Positions 22,223-31,235 of a stretch of DNA of 61,950 nucleotides are shown here, one piece after another; within the stretch, counting starts at the first letter, position 1; each line of letters opens with the position of its first letter. Source of the stretch: Gammaproteobacteria bacterium (GTDB taxonomy: Bacteria > Pseudomonadota > Gammaproteobacteria > Burkholderiales > Burkholderiaceae_B); contig JAHIXK010000004.1 in NCBI GenBank assembly GCA_018815245.1, forward strand, positions 1 through 61,950, read 5' to 3'. The notes under the pieces were generated by a model that was not told the origin of the DNA, did not search any database, and was given only the letters and a program-made list of their open reading frames with translations. Both the position numbers and the translations under genes were made by a program.

Positions 22223-23497
22223 CTACACCAGCGTGTCTGCCCAAATGTTCTGGGCCCAGTTCCAGGCGTAAGTACCCTCCAGCTCGTTGGGTGCAGCGGA
22301 CACACCGCCCGAACCTTCCACCGTCAGGAATGTTTTCTTCTCCGCGTTGTACACATGCACGCTGGCCACGTGAATCACGTTGTTGGTGGTCACGTAGCTG
22401 TAGCAGGTGTTGTTGGTCAGTGGCGTGGCGTTGGGTTCCCAGCCGCTAAGCTGCGCAACAATTGCGGCAGCAACTACCTTGGCCTGGCTGTTGGCCATGT
22501 GGCCACTTTTCGGCATCAAGGGTGCGCTTTGTACTGAATCGCCAATCACGTGCACATTGGGTGCCACAGTTGATTCAAAGGTCATGTAGTTCACCTCGGC
22601 CCAACGCTTGTTCAGGTTGGCAATGCCGGAATCGACCACCAGTTTTCCTGCACGTTGTTCAGGCAGAATGTTCAGCACATCGCCCTTGATGGGTTCTTCA
22701 AATTCAAAACGAACTGTTTTCGTGGCGCCATCTACACCGGTTACTTTCATGTTGGGGCGGTATTCCAGAATGCCTTTGTACTCGCTTTCCCAGACGCCTT
22801 TGAACAACTTGCCTTTCGATGTTACGTCGGCATTTGCATCAAGCAGCAACACTTTTGATTTTGGTTTGTATTGCTTGAAGTAGTTGGCCACCATGCTGGC
22901 GCGTTCGTAAGGGCCGGGGGGGCAGCGGTAGGGGGCCAGTGGCACGTTCAGAATGTATGTGCCGCCATCGGGCATGGCTTCCAGTTGTTTGCGCAAACCC
23001 ACGGTTTCGGGGCCAGCTTTCCAGGCCTGTAAAATTTGACCGTTGGCATTGGCCGCTGCCAGACCTTCAATTTTGTCCAGTTGCAAATCAATGCCGGGTG
23101 ACAACACCAGTTTGTCGTAGGGCAGGGTTTTGCCACTTTTCAATTTCACGGTGCGTTTTTCAACATCAATGGCGGTTACATAATCTTTCACCATTTTCAC
23201 GCCGTGGTTGCGGGCAAGGCCGGTGTATGGCGTGCTGATTTCACTTATTTTGCGAAGCCCTCCCACCACCAGGTTGCTCATGGGGCAGGAAATGAATGTG
23301 GCGTTGGGTTCAACCAGGGTAACGTTCAACTGGTTGCCCGACAGCAGGCGCAGGTACTTGGCCGCAGTGGCACCACCATAACCACCACCAATCACCACCA
23401 CTTTGCCTTTGGCGGTTTTGGCTGTTGCTGAAAGGGGCATGCCACCCAGCAGGGCCGTGGCCAGTGCGCTGGTTTGTAGAAATTGTCTTCTTTGCAT
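22223..23497 (-). CDS. fccB: Flavocytochrome c sulfide dehydrogenase, flavoprotein subunit
   Basis: 424 residues with a Tat signal (MQRRQFLQTSALA), so it is exported folded with FAD. The Rossmann motif is VVVIGGGYGGATAAKYL. Redox-active Cys candidates are in FISCPMSNL and NNTCYSY; the C-terminal FCSD flavin-binding region (about 350-424) is complete. It oxidises sulfide, or a Sox-pathway intermediate, in the periplasm and passes electrons to the c-type cytochrome encoded 10 bp upstream. SoxF is the same family, so fccB and soxF cannot be separated here. No sox genes are in the window. Confidence 0.9.
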   Translation of the reverse strand: MQRRQFLQTSALATALLGGMPLSATAKTAKGKVVVIGGGYGGATAAKYLRLLSGNQLNVTLVEPNATFISCPMSNLVVGGLRKISEISTPYTGLARNHGVKMVKDYVTAIDVEKRTVKLKSGKTLPYDKLVLSPGIDLQLDKIEGLAAANANGQILQAWKAGPETVGLRKQLEAMPDGGTYILNVPLAPYRCPPGPYERASMVANYFKQYKPKSKVLLLDANADVTSKGKLFKGVWESEYKGILEYRPNMKVTGVDGATKTVRFEFEEPIKGDVLNILPEQRAGKLVVDSGIANLNKRWAEVNYMTFESTVAPNVHVIGDSVQSAPLMPKSGHMANSQAKVVAAAIVAQLSGWEPNATPLTNNTCYSYVTTNNVIHVASVHVYNAEKKTFLTVEGSGGVSAAPNELEGTYAWNWAQNIWADTLV

Positions 23498-23507
23498 GGT
23501 GCGCTCC

Positions 23508-23855
23508 TTAGTCTTTTTTGCCCAGATAGTTGGCGATGATGTCGATCTGCTCGTCGGTGTAACCCTTGGAAAGCTGATGCATCACGGTGGCGGGGCGCTG
23601 CCCGGTCTTGAACCAGATCATATTGGTTTTGATGTATTCCACACTCAAGTTGGCCAAGCCAGTTACCGCACTGCCCTCTACACCTTTGCCATTGGTGCCG
23701 TGGCAATTTGCACAGGTGGCGGCCAGGCTAGCCGCCTGGAGTTTCTTCTCTGGAGTCATGTCGCTTGCCCCGGCAGCCGAGCCAAGCAGCAAAAGGCCGC
23801 TGGTCAGCATGGTGCTGGCCACTCGCCGTGCCGCGTGTTGTTGTCGCTTGATCAT
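23508..23855 (-). CDS. Monoheme cytochrome c, partner of the sulfide dehydrogenase
   Basis: 115 residues with a signal peptide of about 30 residues and one heme site, CANCH, followed by GTNGKG. Met ligand candidates lie in TVMHQLSKGYTDEQ, as in class I FccA/SoxE-like cytochromes. It is the first gene of a two-gene operon with the flavoprotein and should be its electron acceptor. Known FccA proteins may carry one or two hemes; this one has only one. Confidence 0.87.
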   Translation of the reverse strand: MIKRQQHAARRVASTMLTSGLLLLGSAAGASDMTPEKKLQAASLAATCANCHGTNGKGVEGSAVTGLANLSVEYIKTNMIWFKTGQRPATVMHQLSKGYTDEQIDIIANYLGKKD

Positions 23856-23981: not shown

Positions 23982-26900
23982 ATGCATATAACAACAACGA
24001 GGCTGGACGTGGCGCATTCAAAACAAGCACTGCAAGCACTGTTTTTTTCCCTTTCCGCATTGGTTCTCAGTGCCTGTTTGTCCTCCAGTGATGACCCCAC
24101 GGCAAGCTCGGGTGGTGGTGGCAGCGCAATCAACCCTGCCGAATCAAATGGTCGCGTGTTCTTGATTCAGCCCGGTCCGAATGCTTCCGAGGACATGGTG
24201 AAAGCCATGGTGCAACTAAAACCCAAAGACATTCTCCGGTTTGATTGTGGTTTTTTTGATTTGAAAACCGGTATTCAGATCACCACCACCGAGGATGTGA
24301 TCATTGAAGGTTGCGGCATGGATGAGACATTCCTGTCGTTTCGCGACAGCAATTCGCAGGAAGGCTTTCTGGCGTCGAACGTGCGCGGTGTCACGGTGCG
24401 CAACCTGACCATTGGCGATTCGCCCGGCGATGCGTTCAAAATGAAAGGCGTGAACCACGGCACATTGAAAAAGGTACGGGCCATTTGGAGCAGCGGGCGG
24501 AAAACCCAGGAAGAACGCCCGATTACCGCCGCGAATTTCCGCAATGAAGTCAAGGTGCAGTGCACCGACCCCGCGCGCCACAACCCGGCCAATCCCAATC
24601 CTTTGGAAACGGACAAAACCTCGCCCGATTACACAGTGAGCACCGCCTCGGGGCGCTACGGCATTTACCCGGTGGAAAGCCGCAACATTCTGGTGGAAGA
24701 AACGGAATCCATCGGTGCGTCTGACGCAGGTATATACGTGGGCCAAACCAATATCGCGAAAATTCGAAAAAGCCGCGCAGCCTTCAACGTGTTCGGTTTC
24801 GAAATAGAAAACGTGGTGGACGGCGAGTATTCCGAGAACATTGCCGAGTGCAATTCTGGCGGGTTTCTGGTCTACGACCTGGACAACCTGACCCAGTACG
24901 GTTCACGTTCGCGTGTGTTCAACAACATTTCCAGAAACAACAACACTTACAACTTCGCCGTGCCAGGATCGATTGTGGCGAATGTGCCCCGTGGTTCAGG
25001 ACTGATTACGCTGGCCTACGACAAGATTGATATTTACGACAATGTGTTCGAGAACAATGGTACAGCTGGCGTTATTTTGACCAGCTACGATTTGCTGGGC
25101 GAAAACGGCGACCGCCGCATGGATGTGTATTCCGAAGCGGTGAATATTTTCGACAACACCTTCATCAACAACGGCAATGATTTGCCTCAGCCCGATTTCG
25201 CGGGCATTGTGGCCACGCAAGGCGGGCAGGTGACCAGTGCCTTCCCGTTGGTGGTGGGTTTGAAAAACGCAGCCGGTGGCGGCGGATACAGGGGCGCACA
25301 CATTGTGTGGGACGGCTACACCGATGAACTGAACAGCGAATGTGAATTGCCCAAGGACCGAAATGGCAACCCTGTGGCGGTCGATGATGATGGCAAACCC
25401 ATTCAAGGCAACCACAACCCCAACCCCAGTTGCCGCTACAACAAATACAAATTCAAGGCGAACGGCGAGCGCAAGGTGCCTGCGTGGTGGTTCAGCTGCA
25501 TCAACCCCAACAACAATTTCGGTTCAGACAGCCTGGCATTTGCAAATTTCCACGGTACACGCGGCCTGGACGCGGTGATCAATCTGAATACGAATGACCC
25601 AGCCGCCAACCTGTCGCTGGATTACCTGACCGCGGTGGGCAGTGGCATTCCCTTGTTTCCCTCTGAGTTTGATTTGAGCAAGCACAATTGCATGGCACGA
25701 TTTGGCTCGGACCTGCCACGCCTGCCCGACTTTGAGTTTGAGAAATTCGAGCCCAGTGGCCAGTTTGCCCCAGAGCCCGCGGCTGAAGCAGTCAAGGCAC
25801 TGTGCGAAGTGCCTTTGAAAGCCGGTGTGGTTAACCAGCCCGCCGCCGCAGTGAATTGCCCCGACCTTGCGCAATACAATTTGTTTGCGAGCGATCAGGA
25901 CCCCGCAAGTAAACCGAACGGGCAGGGCATGCCCTATGTGTTGAACAGCAAGCTGTTCAGCGATTATTCGATCAAGCACCGGGTTGTCTTCATACCGGAG
26001 GGCAGGCAGGCCCGCTTCCTTGAAGACGAATCAAGCCGGGTAAATTCCACCATTGATTTTCCGGTGGGCACCATCATTGCCAAAACCTTCTCGTTTGTGG
26101 ACCAGCCGCGTGCCCTTGAAACCCCGTATGAAACCCGTTTGCTGATCAAGCGCCAGCGCAGGGACGGGCAAAACTACTGGGAAGCGCTGGAGTACATTTG
26201 GCAAGATGCGGGCAATGGAAAGCGCAAGGCCGTGCTGACCCAGTTTGGCGGCACAGCATCGGCCAGTTGGGATTACGTGGACGTGGATTCGGGCAGGCGC
26301 CAGGCGGGAAGCACCGACCAGTACCTGTTCCCCAATGCCAGCCAGTGCGCCATTTGCCACAGCAACAACGATGTGGATCCGGGTTCAGCGCCCATTGGCC
26401 CCAAGCCACGCAATTTGAACCGGGCCTACGTGAATGAATCGCCCATGTTCACAGGGCAAGCCCAGCACCCGGTCAATGGCAAGAACCAGTTGAAGTTCAT
26501 GTGTGAAACCGGCCTGATGAATGGCTGCCCCAGCAGCTTTAATCTCGACGAGCGGCAGGTTGCCACCAACGTGAACCACATTCCCAAGTTCAACAAGCCC
26601 GGCGATTCGGGCATGCCCGCGAATTCCAAAGGCGACATTGAGGCCCGCGCCCGTGCTTATCTGGAAGTGAATTGCGCACACTGCCACAATGTGAACGGAC
26701 AGGCTTCCAACACGGGTTTCTATGTGGACGTGTTCCGCGCCGTTGACAGCACCTACGGCATTTGTAAAAAGCCTACGGCCAGCGGTTCAGAAGGGCGGGG
26801 CACCCGCACCTACGACATTCACCCTGCCATGTCAGGCGATTCAATTGTGCCGTACCGAATGGGGCCGGAGGCTGTGGAGCTTGCAGCAAAAATGCCGCCA

Positions 26901-27059
26901 TTGGCACGTAGCGTGGTGCACGAAGAGGGCGTTGCCCTGATCAACCAGTGGATTGACCAGGTGATTGATTCCAGCTACGAGAACGCCGATGCCTGCCAAG
27001 AGGGCAATACATCAGGCGGTGGTTTGCCCTTGATCGGAGGCCTTCCCCTGTTACCATAG
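23982..27059 (+). CDS. Fusion lipoprotein: parallel beta-helix domain plus SO2930-type diheme cytochrome c
   Basis: 1025 residues. The signal ends in a lipobox (ALVLSAC, Cys near residue 32), so it is probably anchored in a membrane facing the periplasm or the outside. Residues about 45-450 are parallel beta-helix repeats (VIIEGCGMDETFLSF, VTVRNLTIGDSPGDAFKMKG). From about 625 (CPDLAQYNLFASDQDP) it matches the SO2930/HNE_0200-type cytochrome, with heme sites CAICH (789-793) and CAHCH (898-902). These two families are normally separate neighbouring genes; here they are one chain. Function is unknown; electron transfer coupled to a bound polymer or surface is plausible. Confidence 0.85.
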   Translation: MHITTTRLDVAHSKQALQALFFSLSALVLSACLSSSDDPTASSGGGGSAINPAESNGRVFLIQPGPNASEDMVKAMVQLKPKDILRFDCGFFDLKTGIQITTTEDVIIEGCGMDETFLSFRDSNSQEGFLASNVRGVTVRNLTIGDSPGDAFKMKGVNHGTLKKVRAIWSSGRKTQEERPITAANFRNEVKVQCTDPARHNPANPNPLETDKTSPDYTVSTASGRYGIYPVESRNILVEETESIGASDAGIYVGQTNIAKIRKSRAAFNVFGFEIENVVDGEYSENIAECNSGGFLVYDLDNLTQYGSRSRVFNNISRNNNTYNFAVPGSIVANVPRGSGLITLAYDKIDIYDNVFENNGTAGVILTSYDLLGENGDRRMDVYSEAVNIFDNTFINNGNDLPQPDFAGIVATQGGQVTSAFPLVVGLKNAAGGGGYRGAHIVWDGYTDELNSECELPKDRNGNPVAVDDDGKPIQGNHNPNPSCRYNKYKFKANGERKVPAWWFSCINPNNNFGSDSLAFANFHGTRGLDAVINLNTNDPAANLSLDYLTAVGSGIPLFPSEFDLSKHNCMARFGSDLPRLPDFEFEKFEPSGQFAPEPAAEAVKALCEVPLKAGVVNQPAAAVNCPDLAQYNLFASDQDPASKPNGQGMPYVLNSKLFSDYSIKHRVVFIPEGRQARFLEDESSRVNSTIDFPVGTIIAKTFSFVDQPRALETPYETRLLIKRQRRDGQNYWEALEYIWQDAGNGKRKAVLTQFGGTASASWDYVDVDSGRRQAGSTDQYLFPNASQCAICHSNNDVDPGSAPIGPKPRNLNRAYVNESPMFTGQAQHPVNGKNQLKFMCETGLMNGCPSSFNLDERQVATNVNHIPKFNKPGDSGMPANSKGDIEARARAYLEVNCAHCHNVNGQASNTGFYVDVFRAVDSTYGICKKPTASGSEGRGTRTYDIHPAMSGDSIVPYRMGPEAVELAAKMPPLARSVVHEEGVALINQWIDQVIDSSYENADACQEGNTSGGGLPLIGGLPLLP

Positions 27060-27063
27060 GGAA

Positions 27064-27879
27064 ATGGAGTTACTCAAAGATCCCACCGTCTTGTTTTTGT
27101 TCAAACTGGCCATCACCTTCGGGTTGATGGCCAGTGGTTTCTTTGTGAACCGGGCCTTGTCCTGGTCGCTTCGCAAGCTGCACACTTATCATCCGGAAAA
27201 AGCGCGTTCCCAACTGGTTTTTTTCAAAAACCTGGTTCGAATGTTTGTTTTCTTTCTGCTGGTTTCCGTGTGGGCTTCGCAAATTACGGGTGCCTTCCTC
27301 AGTGTCATTGCAATTGCAGGTGCATTGATCATCACCGGCAAGGAAGTGGTACTCAGCCTGTTGGGCTATGTGAATATTTCGCTGTCCAAGCCATTCCGGA
27401 TCGGTGATTACATTGAAATTGGTACCCAAAATGGCCGGGTGATTGACATTGATTTGCTCAGTACCAAGTTGTTTGAAATCGGCATGTCGGGCAAGTACAC
27501 CGGGCGCCGCCTGGCGGTTCCGAATGTAATGGTGTTTACGCACACCATCAAACACCTGTCGATGCTGGGCCAGTTCAGTTTGTACACGATCGAGATTATT
27601 TTGCCATTCAAGGCCGATACTGTGAGGGCAGAGCAGATCGCGCTGCAGGTGGCCAACGATGTGTCAGCGGCCTGGCTGGATGAGGCTGATCGGTACTTTG
27701 ATCGCATTGAGGTGTCAGAATTTGTTGACTTGCCCGGTGCCAAACCTGAAGTGTTTTGGCAGGCCTACAATGAACTGGCGCACAAAATGATTGTTCGGCT
27801 GGCTTGTCCGCTTGAAAAGCGGGGTGATGCAGAGCAGGCAATTTACAAGGGCTTCTGGCGGGAATTCGGGCCAGTCTGA
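27064..27879 (+). CDS. MscS-family mechanosensitive channel
   Basis: 271 residues, close to E. coli MscS. There are two N-terminal helices, a pore-type helix rich in Gly/Ala (VIAIAGALIITGKEVVLSLLGYV), then the beta domain with KPFRIGDYIEIGTQNGRVIDIDLL and VPNVMVFTHTIKHL. It should release solutes on hypo-osmotic shock, which fits an ectoine producer. It starts 4 bp after the cytochrome fusion gene, suggesting co-transcription, though a functional link is not evident. Confidence 0.9.
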   Translation: MELLKDPTVLFLFKLAITFGLMASGFFVNRALSWSLRKLHTYHPEKARSQLVFFKNLVRMFVFFLLVSVWASQITGAFLSVIAIAGALIITGKEVVLSLLGYVNISLSKPFRIGDYIEIGTQNGRVIDIDLLSTKLFEIGMSGKYTGRRLAVPNVMVFTHTIKHLSMLGQFSLYTIEIILPFKADTVRAEQIALQVANDVSAAWLDEADRYFDRIEVSEFVDLPGAKPEVFWQAYNELAHKMIVRLACPLEKRGDAEQAIYKGFWREFGPV

Positions 27880-27975
27880 ATTCCGTTCGGTATGAATTCC
27901 GGTGGAAGCCGGGAACCTCCTTCGACAAATACCAGTCTACAAGGCCTGAAGTTGAATAACAAAAAAGGGACATAC

Positions 27976-28575
27976 ATGGCATATTTCGCAGTTCGTTCGG
28001 CGCACAGAACATTGGGTGTTTTTTTGGTAGGCGCCTTGTTTGGCATGTCCGCATGGGCTGGTGGTGACCATAGCCACGGCCACAGCCGCCAAAACGATGC
28101 GGCCCATGTGCATGGCACAGGCGAAATGGAAATAGTGCAAGACGGCAATGGCTTGTTCATCAGCCTTTACACCCCATTGCAGAACGTGCTGGGCTTTGAG
28201 CACATGCCGCGAACCGACACTGAGAAAGTGAAGGCACGCAGGGTAACGTCCTTGTTGAAAGCGAACGGCTTGTTTGCGTTTTCGCCAGATGCCCAGTGCA
28301 AACGCACAGGCTACAAACTGAACTCCGAGGTGTTGAACCCGCATTCTCACGGCCCTGCGGACGACCATCAACATCATGATTCCAAGGGTGAGCATTCCGA
28401 CCTGCGTGCAGCCTATGAGTTTGAATGTAAGTTTCCTGCGAAACTCAAAGTGATTGATGTGCGCGTGTTCCGGCAGTTTCCCGGTTTCGAGAAAATCGAA
28501 GTACAGGCCTTGTTCCCAAGCGGGCAAGTGGGTGCCAGCCTGACCCCAGCCAAGAGCACTTTGGTGGTTCAATGA
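27976..28575 (+). CDS. DUF2796 / ZrgA-like His-rich periplasmic protein
   Basis: 199 residues from ATG at 27976, preceded by AAAAAGGGA. A signal peptide (about 25 residues) leads to a His-rich mature start (GGDHSHGHSRQND, HVHGTGEME) and a second His cluster (NPHSHGPADDHQHHD). Such clusters bind zinc. DUF2796 includes ZrgA of the Vibrio cholerae ZrgABCDE zinc uptake system. It overlaps the ABC ATPase gene by 4 bp. The zinc role is inferred from family and operon. Confidence 0.82.
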   Translation: MAYFAVRSAHRTLGVFLVGALFGMSAWAGGDHSHGHSRQNDAAHVHGTGEMEIVQDGNGLFISLYTPLQNVLGFEHMPRTDTEKVKARRVTSLLKANGLFAFSPDAQCKRTGYKLNSEVLNPHSHGPADDHQHHDSKGEHSDLRAAYEFECKFPAKLKVIDVRVFRQFPGFEKIEVQALFPSGQVGASLTPAKSTLVVQ

Positions 28576-29267
28576 CCTCAACGGTACTTCAGTGCGAAAA
28601 CCTCGTATTCAAGTACGCCAGTAGTGGGTTTGAACTGCGAATGTCCGGTTTTTGCATGAAAGCGGGCGACACGGTGTTTCTTGAGGGTGACAGCGGCAGT
28701 GGCAAAAGCACCTTGCTGAATTTGATGGCAGGTGTGTTGACGCCACAAACTGGCCATGTTGCACTGATGGGCAAGAATTTGAACACGCTTTCCCCCGGCC
28801 AATGCGATGCCCTGCGCGTGAACCATGTGGGCTTTCTGTTTCAGCAATTCAATTTACTCAGTTATTTGAGTGTGCTTGACAACGTCACCTTGCCCTGCAA
28901 GTTTTCCAAACGCCGCAAGCACAATGCGGTACAGGCTGCCGGCAGTGTTGAACAGGCTGCTGTTCAATTGCTCAACGCCTTGGGCATGGGCAATTGTTTG
29001 CAGCAATCCGTGTCCACTTTGTCGGTGGGTCAGCAGCAGCGGGTAGCGGCAGCGCGTGCATTGATCGGCAAACCCGATTTGATTATTGCAGACGAACCCA
29101 CATCAGCACTGGACGCCGGCCATCAAGCCCGGTTTGTTGAATTGCTACTGGCGCAAGCCGCCCAACAAAACACGGCCGTGTTGCTGGTTAGCCACGATCC
29201 AGAACTGGCAAGGTACTGTGCGCGGCGCGAACACATGAACTGTTGGAATGCGGGTGCAACAACATGA
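28572..29267 (+). CDS. ABC transporter ATP-binding protein (LolD/MacB type)
   Basis: 231 residues. Walker A GDSGSGKST, Q-loop in GFLFQQFNLLSYLSVLDNV, signature STLSVGQQQRV (Val in place of the usual Gly after Ser), Walker B LIIADEPTSALD and switch VLLVSHD. Type VII (FtsX-partnered) ATPases of this type drive mechanotransmission or extraction rather than classic import. It overlaps both neighbours by 4 bp. It pairs with the FtsX-like permease next to it. Confidence 0.88.
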   Translation: MTSTVLQCENLVFKYASSGFELRMSGFCMKAGDTVFLEGDSGSGKSTLLNLMAGVLTPQTGHVALMGKNLNTLSPGQCDALRVNHVGFLFQQFNLLSYLSVLDNVTLPCKFSKRRKHNAVQAAGSVEQAAVQLLNALGMGNCLQQSVSTLSVGQQQRVAAARALIGKPDLIIADEPTSALDAGHQARFVELLLAQAAQQNTAVLLVSHDPELARYCARREHMNCWNAGATT

Positions 29268-30562
29268 TGCAAACGCTGTTGTTGCTGGCCAGTCGAAGCG
29301 CATGGAGCCGCAAAGGCAGCCTGCTGCTGCTGTTGCTCAGTGTAATCACGTCCACCTGCCTGTTACTGGGCATTGATTTGGCCAGGCAAAGTGCCAAGGC
29401 CAGTTTTTCAAACGCAGTGGCAGGCACGGATTTGATTGTGGGCGCGCAAACCAGCCCCGTTTCCCTTCTGCTGTACAGCGTGTTCCGAATTGGGCAGGCC
29501 ACGCGCAATGTACCGTACGCCGAATTTGAGCGCCTTGAGCAAGACCCCCGTGTGAAATCGGCGCTGCCAATTGCCTTGGGCGATTCCTACCGGGGCTTTG
29601 CCGTGGTGGGCACAAAGGCCGCGTACTTCGACAGTTTTTTGTATGGTGCGCGGCAAAATCTGCAGTTTGCACAGGGCAGGGCATTCGAGAATTACAGTGT
29701 GGGCAAGCCTGCTACTGTGTTGTTCGAAGCAGTGCTGGGTGCTGAAGTGGCTGCGCGTTTGAAGCACACCGTGGGCGACAAAATTGCGCTAAGCCACGGC
29801 ATGCAAATTCAGCAAACTGAGCCAAGCCATGCAAACAAGCCCTTCATGGTTGTGGGGGTGTTAAAGCCCACAGGCACGCCGGTGGATCAAAGCGTGCACA
29901 TCAGCCTGGCGGGCATGGAGGCAATTCATGTCGATTGGGCCGCGGGTGTGCCTGTACCCGGAGCCGACATTCCGGCTGAATATGTGACCAAATTCGACTT
30001 GCAACCCAAATCAGTTACAGCGGTTTTATTGGCCTTGAACAACCGGGCTGGTGTGTTTCGCATGCAGCGCGAACTGGAAAGCCGCCCAGGTGTGGCGCTA
30101 AGTGCCATTCTGCCCGGTGTGGCCTTAAGCAGCCTGTGGCTAACGGTGGGGCTTGTTGAGCGAGTGTTGCTGTTTGTGGCAGCCTTGGTTGCCTTGGTCA
30201 GTGCCCTGGGTTTGACCAGCGTCATGTTGGTGACCCTGGGGCAGCGCAGGCGTGAACTGGCCGTGTTGCGTTCAACCGGGGCAGGGCCAAGGGCTGTGTT
30301 TGGCTTGTTGTGCCTTGAAAGCGCCTTGGTGATGTGGGTCGGCGTTGCTTTGGGTGTTGTGGTGCTTGGGCTTGCAAGCGCTGCACTTGCGCCCTGGGTT
30401 CAGGCACAATTTGGTTTGCAACTGGTTGGTTTGAATGAATTGGGCGCGGGCTTGATGGCCGTGACCGCCTTCGCAGCGTTTGGCAGCCTGCTGGGACTTG
30501 TGCCAGCATGGCAGGCGTACCGGAACCAGCTGCAAGATGGTCTGAATCCCAAAATGAATTGA
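29264..30562 (+). CDS. ABC transporter permease, FtsX-like
   Basis: 432 residues from ATG at 29264 (ATGA overlap with the ATPase stop). One N-terminal helix (GSLLLLLLSVITSTCLLLGI), a periplasmic MacB-like domain of about 220 residues, then three C-terminal helices with the FtsX pattern (LGQRRRELAVLRSTGAGPRAVF coupling region). It forms a MacB-type complex with the preceding ATPase. With the DUF2796 and DUF3299 neighbours it matches the Zrg-like arrangement. Confidence 0.87.
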   Translation: MMQTLLLLASRSAWSRKGSLLLLLLSVITSTCLLLGIDLARQSAKASFSNAVAGTDLIVGAQTSPVSLLLYSVFRIGQATRNVPYAEFERLEQDPRVKSALPIALGDSYRGFAVVGTKAAYFDSFLYGARQNLQFAQGRAFENYSVGKPATVLFEAVLGAEVAARLKHTVGDKIALSHGMQIQQTEPSHANKPFMVVGVLKPTGTPVDQSVHISLAGMEAIHVDWAAGVPVPGADIPAEYVTKFDLQPKSVTAVLLALNNRAGVFRMQRELESRPGVALSAILPGVALSSLWLTVGLVERVLLFVAALVALVSALGLTSVMLVTLGQRRRELAVLRSTGAGPRAVFGLLCLESALVMWVGVALGVVVLGLASAALAPWVQAQFGLQLVGLNELGAGLMAVTAFAAFGSLLGLVPAWQAYRNQLQDGLNPKMN

Positions 30563-30584
30563 GCAACAAGTGGATGTGTAGTCG

Positions 30585-31235
30585 ATGAAAATCAGCAAAT
30601 TGATCGCGATGGTGGTGGGCGTTGTGGCATTGACAGCCGTGGGCTATGGCCTGGCGTCGTGGTTCATGGGCAAACCAGATCTGGCGCAACTGTCCACAGA
30701 CGCGGTCGCCAACAATGAAAACTATGCAGTGGGCGATCGCTTGCCCGCTGGCGAAGCGAAAAAGCCCGCAGCGTTCGACCCTGCCTTTCCGGAATTGCAA
30801 TGGGACGACTTAATGCCCGCCGACTGGGACCCCATGGCTGCATTTCGCGGCCTGGACATTGCCGAACTTCAAGACAACGATCCCAAGGCGCAGCAAGCCC
30901 TGGATACCATGCGCAAGGCGTGGAACGATGCGCCAGTGAACCCGGAACTTGCGGGCAAGAAAGTTCGAATTCCCGGTTTTGCAATTCCCATCGAGCAAAG
31001 CGACAAGGGCGTGGATGAACTGTTGCTGGTGCCGTACTTTGGCGCTTGTATTCACACACCGCCCCCGCCAGCCAACCAGATCATTCACGTGAAACTGAGC
31101 GAACCCCAGCCTGCTGTGGGCGCCATGCAAGCCTACTGGATTTGGGGTGAACTGACTGCCAGCAAATTCAGCAGTGAACTGGGCGATGCGGCCTATCTGA
31201 TCAAAGCCACGGGCATTCAACCCTACGAAGATTAA
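30585..31235 (+). CDS. DUF3299 exported or membrane-anchored protein
   Basis: 216 residues with one N-terminal hydrophobic segment (LIAMVVGVVALTAVGYGLASW) acting as anchor or signal. The conserved core runs KKVRIPGFAIPIE, ELLLVPYFGACIHTPPPPANQ, which is characteristic of DUF3299, with a Cys-x-His pair that could bind metal. Last gene of the DUF2796-ABC-FtsX operon, 22 bp after the permease. Its role in metal handling is inferred from context only. Confidence 0.82.
   Translation: MKISKLIAMVVGVVALTAVGYGLASWFMGKPDLAQLSTDAVANNENYAVGDRLPAGEAKKPAAFDPAFPELQWDDLMPADWDPMAAFRGLDIAELQDNDPKAQQALDTMRKAWNDAPVNPELAGKKVRIPGFAIPIEQSDKGVDELLLVPYFGACIHTPPPPANQIIHVKLSEPQPAVGAMQAYWIWGELTASKFSSELGDAAYLIKATGIQPYED

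Follow-up and report, generated by a model that had tools for sequence, protein, structure and literature searches.

The two halves of the protein encoded by the gene analysed here match two protein families: the beta-helix family TIGR03805 (beta_helix_1 in NCBIfam) and TIGR03806, the "SO2930 family diheme c-type cytochrome". In its usual form the beta-helix protein is encoded by a stand-alone gene that adjoins a diheme gene, as in 32 of 45 phylum-sample genomes. One paper predicts that Bcam1339, encoded in an exopolysaccharide cluster, belongs to TIGR03805. A search of one open-access collection found no literature linking both parts, and the papers searched held no experiment on any fused member. 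In the window, by which we mean the whole stretch of 61,950 nucleotides that was analysed, the two parts are joined in one chain.

The reading frame and its features

The gene occupies a continuous frame on the plus strand, from 23982 to 27059, with 1025 codons from the ATG and zero stops inside. An earlier note on this DNA had described one 1025-residue chain with a lipobox and two CxxCH sites; this description is confirmed in the sequence, and both family profiles find their match. The features are the following.

23982..27059, + strand: gene for a fused lipoprotein, beta-helix plus diheme cytochrome c (frame, profile matches, same-genus conservation)
23999..24008, + strand: GAGG resembling a ribosome-binding site (23999-24002), with the spacer that leads to GTG 24009 (sequence; kept in L012-L020)
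24066..24077, + strand: lipobox LSAC, predicted lipidated Cys (codon 32) at 24075-24077, +2 residue Leu (sequence)
24642..25223, + strand: predicted right-handed parallel beta-helix core, best stretch of TIGR03805, residues 221-414 (NCBIfam, Pfam, AlphaFold2, Foldseek)
25224..25853, + strand: linking segment, residues ~415-624 (outside the best stretch of both family models)
25854..26960, + strand: TIGR03806 (SO2930)-like diheme half, a mainly beta subdomain (~632-785) followed by two heme sites (profile, AlphaFold2)
26346..26360, + strand: heme 1 site CAICH, residues 789-793 (sequence motif)
26673..26687, + strand: heme 2 site CAHCH, residues 898-902 (sequence motif)
26892..26894, + strand: Met971, candidate distal ligand of heme 2 (alignment)

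The true start is probably GTG 24009 rather than ATG 23982, which would give a protein of 1016 aa. This choice is based on the conserved CGAGG upstream of the GTG and on locus L015, which has ACG at the position of the ATG. The window and 9 of the 12 same-genus loci compared (L012-L020) carry CGAGG ahead of the GTG; it was not found in L021-L023. Scanning the window for Rfam families and tRNAs gave no matches.

That the fusion is an artefact of assembly, frameshift or annotation can practically be dismissed. Broken frames, which would favour such a reading, occur only at single loci elsewhere (L098, G038:C87) and not in the window gene. Against it stands the same frame in 13 same-genus genomes, together with an intact frame in 72 of the 75 loci found with the window protein as query, a search that favours fused forms by design. 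An assembly or frameshift error is thereby refuted. With its own genome included, the gene was found in 14 of 16 same-genus genomes, 13 times as a single frame and once as a copy cut by contig ends (G278); the two misses, G274 (85%) and G283 (65%), are both incomplete assemblies.

The lipobox follows a hydrophobic signal, and since position +2 holds Leu rather than Asp, established knowledge of lipoprotein sorting points to the outer membrane as the expected destination. By regular expression, the lipobox is present in 78 of the 82 fused frames examined. Among split proteins it was seen in at least 10 of 27 helix genes and at least 13 of 27 diheme genes, and these counts are a floor, the frames having been read from stop to stop without start calling.

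The two halves of the chain

The N-terminal half scores 222.7 bits against TIGR03805, above the curated cut-off of 141.5, and also matches Beta_helix (PF13229, Pfam) above its cut-off. It is predicted to adopt a right-handed parallel beta-helix fold; in the AlphaFold2 model of the chain (mean pLDDT 80.7, pTM 0.79) the whole helix spans residues ~55-450. Foldseek found fold similarity to RbmB, PL6 and polygalacturonase, with 7-13% identity and a TM by query of at most 0.22 among the matches listed, and the window protein has no match to lyase or glycosidase families in Pfam. The similarity of the helix to NosD is weak. Within the linking segment, Cys 454, 484, 506 and 570 are invariant among 50 aligned fused proteins. 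The earlier suggestion of electron transfer tied to a bound polymer or surface is compatible with what is seen here, given that the predicted helix fold is like that of polysaccharide-acting proteins and that the paper on Bcam1339 places a predicted TIGR03805 protein in an exopolysaccharide cluster.

The TIGR03806 match of the C-terminal half (residues 625-993, 245.3 bits, E 8e-73) covers positions 1-313 of the 314 in the model. Because the score is under the curated cut-off of 313.3 bits despite this full model length, we file the half, on sequence grounds, as a divergent TIGR03806 relative and not as a strict member. Exactly two CxxCH motifs are present in all 82 fused frames examined, in keeping with the two sites of TIGR03806 as judged by motif only. 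Met971 is invariant in an alignment of relatives of all three kinds (fused, split and GSDH-fused), and is likely the distal ligand of heme 2. For heme 1, no His or Met is conserved across all aligned relatives; His980 is kept in 88% of the fused and 78% of the split rows.

The lack of a universally conserved distal residue is one of two observations in favour of a reading that gives heme 1 a catalytic role, like that of a peroxidase or MauG, with the beta-helix as the substrate (protein or glycan) it acts on or as a scaffold that holds it; the other is the CCP/MauG genes that adjoin one-heme relatives of the beta-helix. We consider this reading improbable. The window protein has no match to CCP_MauG (PF03150) in Pfam at E up to 0.01, and the heme-free model leaves room for His980, or a residue elsewhere in the chain, as the ligand. 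A sequence search of solved structures gave 0 matches, and a Foldseek comparison of the diheme-half model with 350,542 PDB chains gave none at E 0.001 or better.

Fused and split relatives and their surroundings

The distribution of the two parts was counted in a phylum sample of 398 genomes and, separately, in a class sample. Both parts occur in 39 genomes of the phylum sample, 7 of which have them fused in one frame and 32 as adjacent genes; TIGR03806 at E 1e-20 or better was found in 42 genomes, and in 39 of these it is linked to TIGR03805. The class sample has the fused form in 5 of the 9 genomes with both parts. The earlier note took the families to be separate, adjacent genes in other proteobacteria, which is true of the 32 split genomes but not of the 7 fused ones or of the 5 in the class sample. 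On the same counts, along with the 72 of 75 query-found loci, the fusion is not unusual, and the idea that the fused form is rare or new is rejected. At the level of the phylum, however, the fused form is not the common form (7 of 39), and the reservation the note had attached to its own proposal, that fusion might turn out to be the rule, is not borne out there.

Judged from the sequences, the fused form is already widespread in Gammaproteobacteria and the window, a stretch of Limnobacter DNA, is one more carrier. The carriers include Marinobacter, Alcanivorax, Zhongshania, Spongiibacter, Oceanococcus, Limnobacter and Shewanella-like genomes, the last label resting on MtrC-like proteins; gammaproteobacterial fused loci outside the Limnobacter group are 47-62% identical to the window protein. 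A stand-alone diheme paralogue lies near the fused gene in 2 of 3 Shewanella-like genomes. In the cytochrome tree, 28 fused proteins and 2 paralogues form one clade (support 98/87), and in the helix tree the window protein lies within a fused clade of 24 rows (100/99), so that it groups with other fused proteins in the trees of both halves. The GSDH-linked diheme domains form a separate clade (100/100) and the one-heme-tail beta-helix relatives a distant one, the deep joins being unsure owing to long branches (L161, L159, L174). The fusion appears to have arisen once or twice, and Limnobacter probably gained the fused gene by transfer.

The carriers also bear on an alternative in which the beta-helix does no chemistry and serves as an adhesin or a surface-polymer anchor, while the hemes form a conduit for extracellular electron transfer, with minerals, humics or electrodes envisaged as the outside acceptors or donors. 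A fused copy is indeed found in three genomes with MtrC/OmcA-type decahemes, yet in two of them (G552 and G663) the fused gene is ~100 kb away from the MtrC/OmcA genes, and metal reduction is not known from most of the fused carriers (Marinobacter, Alcanivorax, Spongiibacter, Limnobacter). We regard it as unlikely.

The link between helix and heme extends well beyond the fused form. The phylum sample holds 46 TIGR03805 hits in 45 genomes. A c-heme lies in cis to 45 of these hits, encoded by the adjacent gene for 32 of them, by a fused diheme module for 7 and by a fused one-heme tail for 6. All of these 6 one-heme-tail proteins adjoin a CCP/MauG-type gene. The earlier proposal that the two halves act as one machine gains support from this pattern, the helix and the c-heme being fused, adjacent or joined through a one-heme tail in 45 of 46 hits. 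It would be too strong to say that the beta-helix always comes with heme. G038:C396 scores 170 bits against TIGR03805, over the cut-off, and shows no CxxCH across 5.5 of 5.9 kb; two other hits, G120:C52 and G461:C4, with 83 and 86 bits, are below the cut-off and have no visible heme, the sole CxxCH of G461:C4 lying in an opposite-strand frame. These heme-less hits amount to 2 of 16 in the class sample (G038:C396, G120:C52) and 1 of 46 in the phylum sample (G461:C4). A beta-helix locus on a Hymenobacter plasmid likewise has no heme in the helix frame or in the adjacent partner.

To look at the neighbourhoods, 37 beta-helix loci were compared with 37 control sites in the same genomes, one site per genome picked by position, for 14 gene families; the wide loci L209, L215 and L216, on short contigs with no control site, were excluded. 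Some queries were derived from test loci, and counts without own-query hits are therefore also given. TonB-receptor genes flank 10 of 37 loci and 1 of 37 controls (nominal p 0.007; 9 versus 1 without own-query hits, nominal p 0.014). The other counts, loci versus controls, were 7 versus 0 for AraC (6 versus 0 without own-query hits), 7 versus 0 for SDR, 4 versus 0 for CCP/MauG (3 versus 0), 3 versus 1 for c4 (2 versus 1), 0 versus 1 for ADH, 2 versus 1 for ALDH, 0 versus 2 for acyl-CoA DH, 4 versus 2 for AMP-binding, 2 versus 0 for P450, 1 versus 0 for both WS/DGAT and FGH, and 0 versus 0 for both PQQ-ADH and M19. TonB, AraC, SDR and CCP/MauG thus stand out or lean towards the beta-helix loci, but no family is significant after correction for the 14 families.

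The TonB count speaks for a role in metal or nutrient handling, perhaps of copper, in which the helix captures a metal or a ligand, the hemes alter its redox state and import is of the TonB type in some relatives. A split pair carried by a Novosphingobium plasmid also has TonB receptors on its flanks, the helix has its weak similarity to NosD, and the MauG-family partners of the one-heme relatives resemble MbnH, which acts on the copper-binding MbnP; their scores of 216-225 bits fall short of the cut-off, which is 362.85. This role seems rather unlikely to us, since the TonB p value is lost on correction, a TonB gene is seen at 0 of 7 fused loci tested, and a profile search found a TonB receptor among 0 of 8 proteins classified in the window.

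Genes for P450, AraC, WS/DGAT, a Zn-alcohol dehydrogenase and an esterase lie near single loci. A role in alcohol, aldehyde or alkane oxidation, hinted at by the carriers, by single-locus neighbours and by the Novosphingobium plasmid, is unsupported by the same-genome control (ADH and ALDH). Of the 75 loci, 34 have an M19-dipeptidase-like gene, an assignment for which one member was checked in Pfam, immediately upstream (Marinobacter 20, Alcanivorax 11, Alloalcanivorax 1, Alcanivoracaceae 1, Pseudomonadales MAG 1), and 2 have it elsewhere in the flank. The Limnobacter loci do not have it, and it was rejected as a partner. A divergent FccAB-like pair, with FCSD domains confirmed for L026, occurs in 11 of 75 loci, all of them Limnobacter or near kin, and this restriction led us to treat a link to sulfide oxidation as chance proximity.

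Interpretation and comparison with known systems

The explanation we favour, tentatively and at somewhat less than even chances, is a surface redox lipoprotein with the beta-helix as the substrate side and the diheme module as the electron acceptor. The chain would be exported, lipidated and sorted to the outer membrane, with its two hemes loaded in the periplasm. The beta-helix would bind a compound outside the cell or in the periplasm, possibly a polymer, and may help to oxidise it; the diheme module would accept the electrons and pass them to a periplasmic carrier, presumably the same role that it plays behind a GSDH dehydrogenase domain. The fusion would then fix a donor-acceptor pair that other bacteria assemble from two neighbouring gene products. 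This explanation is weakened by the heme-less beta-helix members, by the lack of identified catalytic residues, by neighbourhoods that disagree on a pathway and by an SO2930 match below its curated cut-off.

A wider and more doubtful reading is that in the main lineages the TIGR03805 helix, far from binding passively, is the substrate half of an unrecognised class of heme-coupled surface oxidoreductases, the diheme module being shared with GSDH dehydrogenases. The class would be built on three plans, with a separate diheme subunit, a fused diheme module, or a one-heme tail and a MauG/MbnH-like partner. The diheme half, whose model had no match at E 0.001 or better in the structure search, would be a new cytochrome fold, perhaps with one open heme. 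The fusion per se is ordinary in Gammaproteobacteria; the interest lies in the pattern, an uncharacterised helix family with c-heme in cis in nearly every hit and in three architectures. Of the three, the one-chain fusion lends itself best to expression and testing, and it could show what the widespread two-gene system does.

Among known systems, the other fused proteins (Marinobacter, Alcanivorax, Zhongshania, Spongiibacter, Oceanococcus, Shewanella-like) share the domain order of the window protein, the Shewanella-like form being shorter at 885-886 codons. The window protein differs from stand-alone TIGR03805 proteins in its longer, cysteine-bearing linking segment, and its likeness to RbmB, PL6 and polygalacturonase is one of fold only. 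With TIGR03806/SO2930 it shares the full model length and both CxxCH sites, but it scores under the curated cut-off and sits in the branch that holds other fused members. The one-heme-tail relatives have, like the window, a beta-helix over the TIGR03805 cut-off and a c-heme, but one CxxCH in place of two, with a CCP/MauG (MbnH-like) gene and mostly a c4-like cytochrome beside them. The PQQ-type GSDH dehydrogenases share the diheme module, placed behind the dehydrogenase domain: GSDH (PF07995) precedes it in 8 of 8 frames tested from the larger set of TIGR03806 frames lacking the helix, a set to which G010, G036, G093 and G101 also belong. In these proteins the GSDH domain stands where the window has its beta-helix, and the diheme module thus looks like an interchangeable electron acceptor.

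The fused gene and its product

The fused gene is a single open frame on the forward strand, from 23982 to 27059, which encodes 1025 residues with no internal stops. NCBIfam recognizes both halves of the product: TIGR03805 (beta_helix_1) scores 222.7 bits against a cut-off of 141.5, with its best stretch at residues 221-414, and TIGR03806 (SO2930 family diheme c-type cytochrome) aligns over its full model length at residues 625-993, with 245.3 bits, below the family cut-off of 313.3. In Pfam, Beta_helix is matched and Cytochrom_C marginally so. The lipobox LSAC ends at Cys32, and the CxxCH sites lie at residues 789-793 and 898-902. The protein matched 14 of 16 genomes of the same genus, 13 in a single frame and one divided between two contig ends; the two non-matching genomes are incomplete assemblies. 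The fusion is genuine within the genus, and the single chain with beta-helix and two-heme halves described in the earlier note is borne out. Judged from the sequence, translation more likely starts at GTG 24009, because the CGAGG ahead of it is kept in the window and in 9 of the 12 same-genus loci compared, and the upstream ATG is lost in one such locus (L015).

The gene and its surroundings are arranged as follows.

22223-23497, reverse strand: FccB-like sulfide dehydrogenase gene with FCSD Pfam domains, upstream of the fused gene and divergent
23508-23855, reverse strand: FccA-like small cytochrome c gene, upstream and divergent
23982-27059, forward strand: fused gene
27064-27879, forward strand: MscS-type gene, beginning 4 bases past the fused gene
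27892-31235, forward strand: ZrgA-type zinc uptake protein, LolD-like ATPase, FtsX-type permease and DUF3299 protein (NCBIfam/Pfam), after the MscS-type gene

The flavoprotein and small cytochrome c at 22223-23855 make up a flavocytochrome c sulfide dehydrogenase-like pair.

AlphaFold2, run without hemes on the mature chain with 50 relatives as input alignment, predicted a beta-helix followed by a mixed linking segment and then a mainly beta subdomain with helical heme regions (mean pLDDT 80.7, pTM 0.79). The Foldseek matches are beta-helix proteins acting on polysaccharides, the best being RbmB (1.5e-6); polygalacturonases, PL6 lyases and, at 3.9e-3, NosD are also among them. Since identity is low, this resemblance is one of fold only. 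The diheme half modelled alone (pLDDT 79.1) had no Foldseek match in the PDB at E 0.001 or better. Across fused, split and GSDH-type relatives both CxxCH sites are retained, and Met971, likely the distal ligand of heme 2, is invariant. For heme 1, none of the His or Met residues is common to all three groups; His980 is present in 88% of the fused rows and 78% of the split ones.

Frequency and origin of the fusion

The TIGR family descriptions already call the two families neighbours, possibly fused. The class sample of 274 genomes held TIGR03805 (E 1e-20 or better) in 11, nine of them with the diheme nearby or in the same frame: five fused (G000, G025, G038, G112, G229) and four split (G012, G046, G165, G167). 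The other two (G120, G256) have a one-heme tail in place of the diheme. Among the 398 phylum-sample genomes, 45 carry TIGR03805, with the diheme fused in seven (G000, G421, G530, G579, G552, G624, G663), in a neighbouring gene in 32, and replaced by a one-heme tail in six (G465, G570, G651, G653, G660, G681). The earlier note, which knew the two families as separate genes, was half right. A search of genome contigs with the window protein gave 75 loci, 72 in a single frame, a proportion biased upward by a query that favours fused forms; of the other three loci, two are pieces of a single MED105 gene at contig ends, and the third is in Marinobacter similis, where the gene is broken into three frames (L098 7947-10992). 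Two tandem copies of the fused gene occur in Abyssibacter (L046 1-5427, the first truncated at the contig end) and in a Salinisphaerales genome (L047 4710-10964). The fused protein is conserved and belongs to a lineage already widespread in public genomes; the claim that it is novel gains no strength.

In the cytochrome-half tree (66 rows), 28 fused rows cluster with two stand-alone Shewanella-like paralogues in a single clade (98/87), within which the window adjoins Limnobacter litoralis, nested in gammaproteobacterial lineages; seven GSDH-linked rows are separate (100/100). The fused rows require two changes on the best helix tree (62 rows), which may still be compatible with a single origin. 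Transfer into the Limnobacter lineage would be the simplest account, since the 64 further genomes sampled from its family or order gave no match at E 1e-15.

Neighbours and possible redox partners

Gene neighbourhood gives no pointer to the substrate. FccAB-like neighbours, matched by position, occur at 11 of the 75 loci, and all 11 belong to Limnobacter or its close relatives. Against 37 control sites in the same genomes, beta-helix loci had nominal excesses of TonB receptors (10 loci versus 1; 9 without own-query matches), AraC regulators (7 versus 0; 6 without own-query matches) and SDRs (7 versus 0), none significant after correction, and no excess of alcohol/aldehyde dehydrogenases. An M19-dipeptidase-like gene (~850 aa, same strand) lies immediately upstream at 34 of 75 loci (L054 5281-7755 and 33 more), in Marinobacter, Alcanivorax and near kin; in a Salinisphaerales relative (L045) the protein begins with a lipobox-like sequence and contains repeated stretches rich in Asp/Asn. 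On a Novosphingobium plasmid (L233 3985-7777), a TonB receptor gene apparently disrupted by an IS5-family transposase adjoins a split beta-helix/SO2930 pair.

The idea that helix and hemes act as one machine is strengthened, mainly by their partners; the mechanism is inferential. A c-heme stands in cis in 45 of 46 phylum-sample TIGR03805 matches, the remaining one (G461:C4) being under the cut-off. All six one-heme proteins adjoin a Pfam-confirmed CCP/MauG gene; the five of these partners tested in NCBIfam scored 216-225 bits against the MbnH family, short of the 362.85 bits that the family requires. Five of the six loci also have a small two-CxxCH cytochrome, and Ruegeria pomeroyi has a similar cluster. 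In all 8 helix-less diheme proteins tested, the module is accompanied by a GSDH domain. Counting against one redox unit are beta-helix proteins without heme: G038:C396 (170 bits, over the TIGR03805 cut-off), G120:C52 (83 bits) and one on a Hymenobacter plasmid. No CxxCH frame lies within the 5.5 kb read around the first (L232 1554-2861) or the 10.5 kb around the last (L235 4506-5510). An excerpt of PMC3584217 predicts a beta-helix for Bcam1339, in a Burkholderia exopolysaccharide cluster, which would be a further such case.

The one-heme cluster recurs at L223-L229 and on the Ruegeria pomeroyi megaplasmid (L234), with a small two-CxxCH cytochrome (absent from L226), an MbnH/MauG-like diheme enzyme and a TIGR03805 protein whose one-CxxCH tail was read outside Ruegeria only; some have an AraC regulator nearby. 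Diheme and PQQ-type GSDH domains share one chain at L006, L008-L011, L174, L175 and L178, joined by F5/8 type C and ThuA domains in L174 and by CBM26 and planctomycete-type cytochrome-linked domains in L178.

Comparison with Shewanella

Available excerpts of PMC5357785, PMC5829830, PMC12175506, PMC10986466, PMC5955497 and PMC4837345 name SO_2931 an outer-membrane cytochrome, a diheme lipoprotein in the first, and make no mention of a beta-helix. Three genomes (G552, G624, G663) encode fused proteins of 885-886 codons, and in two of these genomes a stand-alone diheme paralogue lies close to the fused gene (L162, L163). This paralogue groups inside the fused clade and may therefore derive from the C-terminal half of the fused protein, released as a separate gene. 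We call these genomes Shewanella-like because all three encode MtrC/OmcA-type decahemes, and a G663 protein matches solved MtrC chains, which we take to be Shewanella chains, at E 2e-231 to 8e-212.
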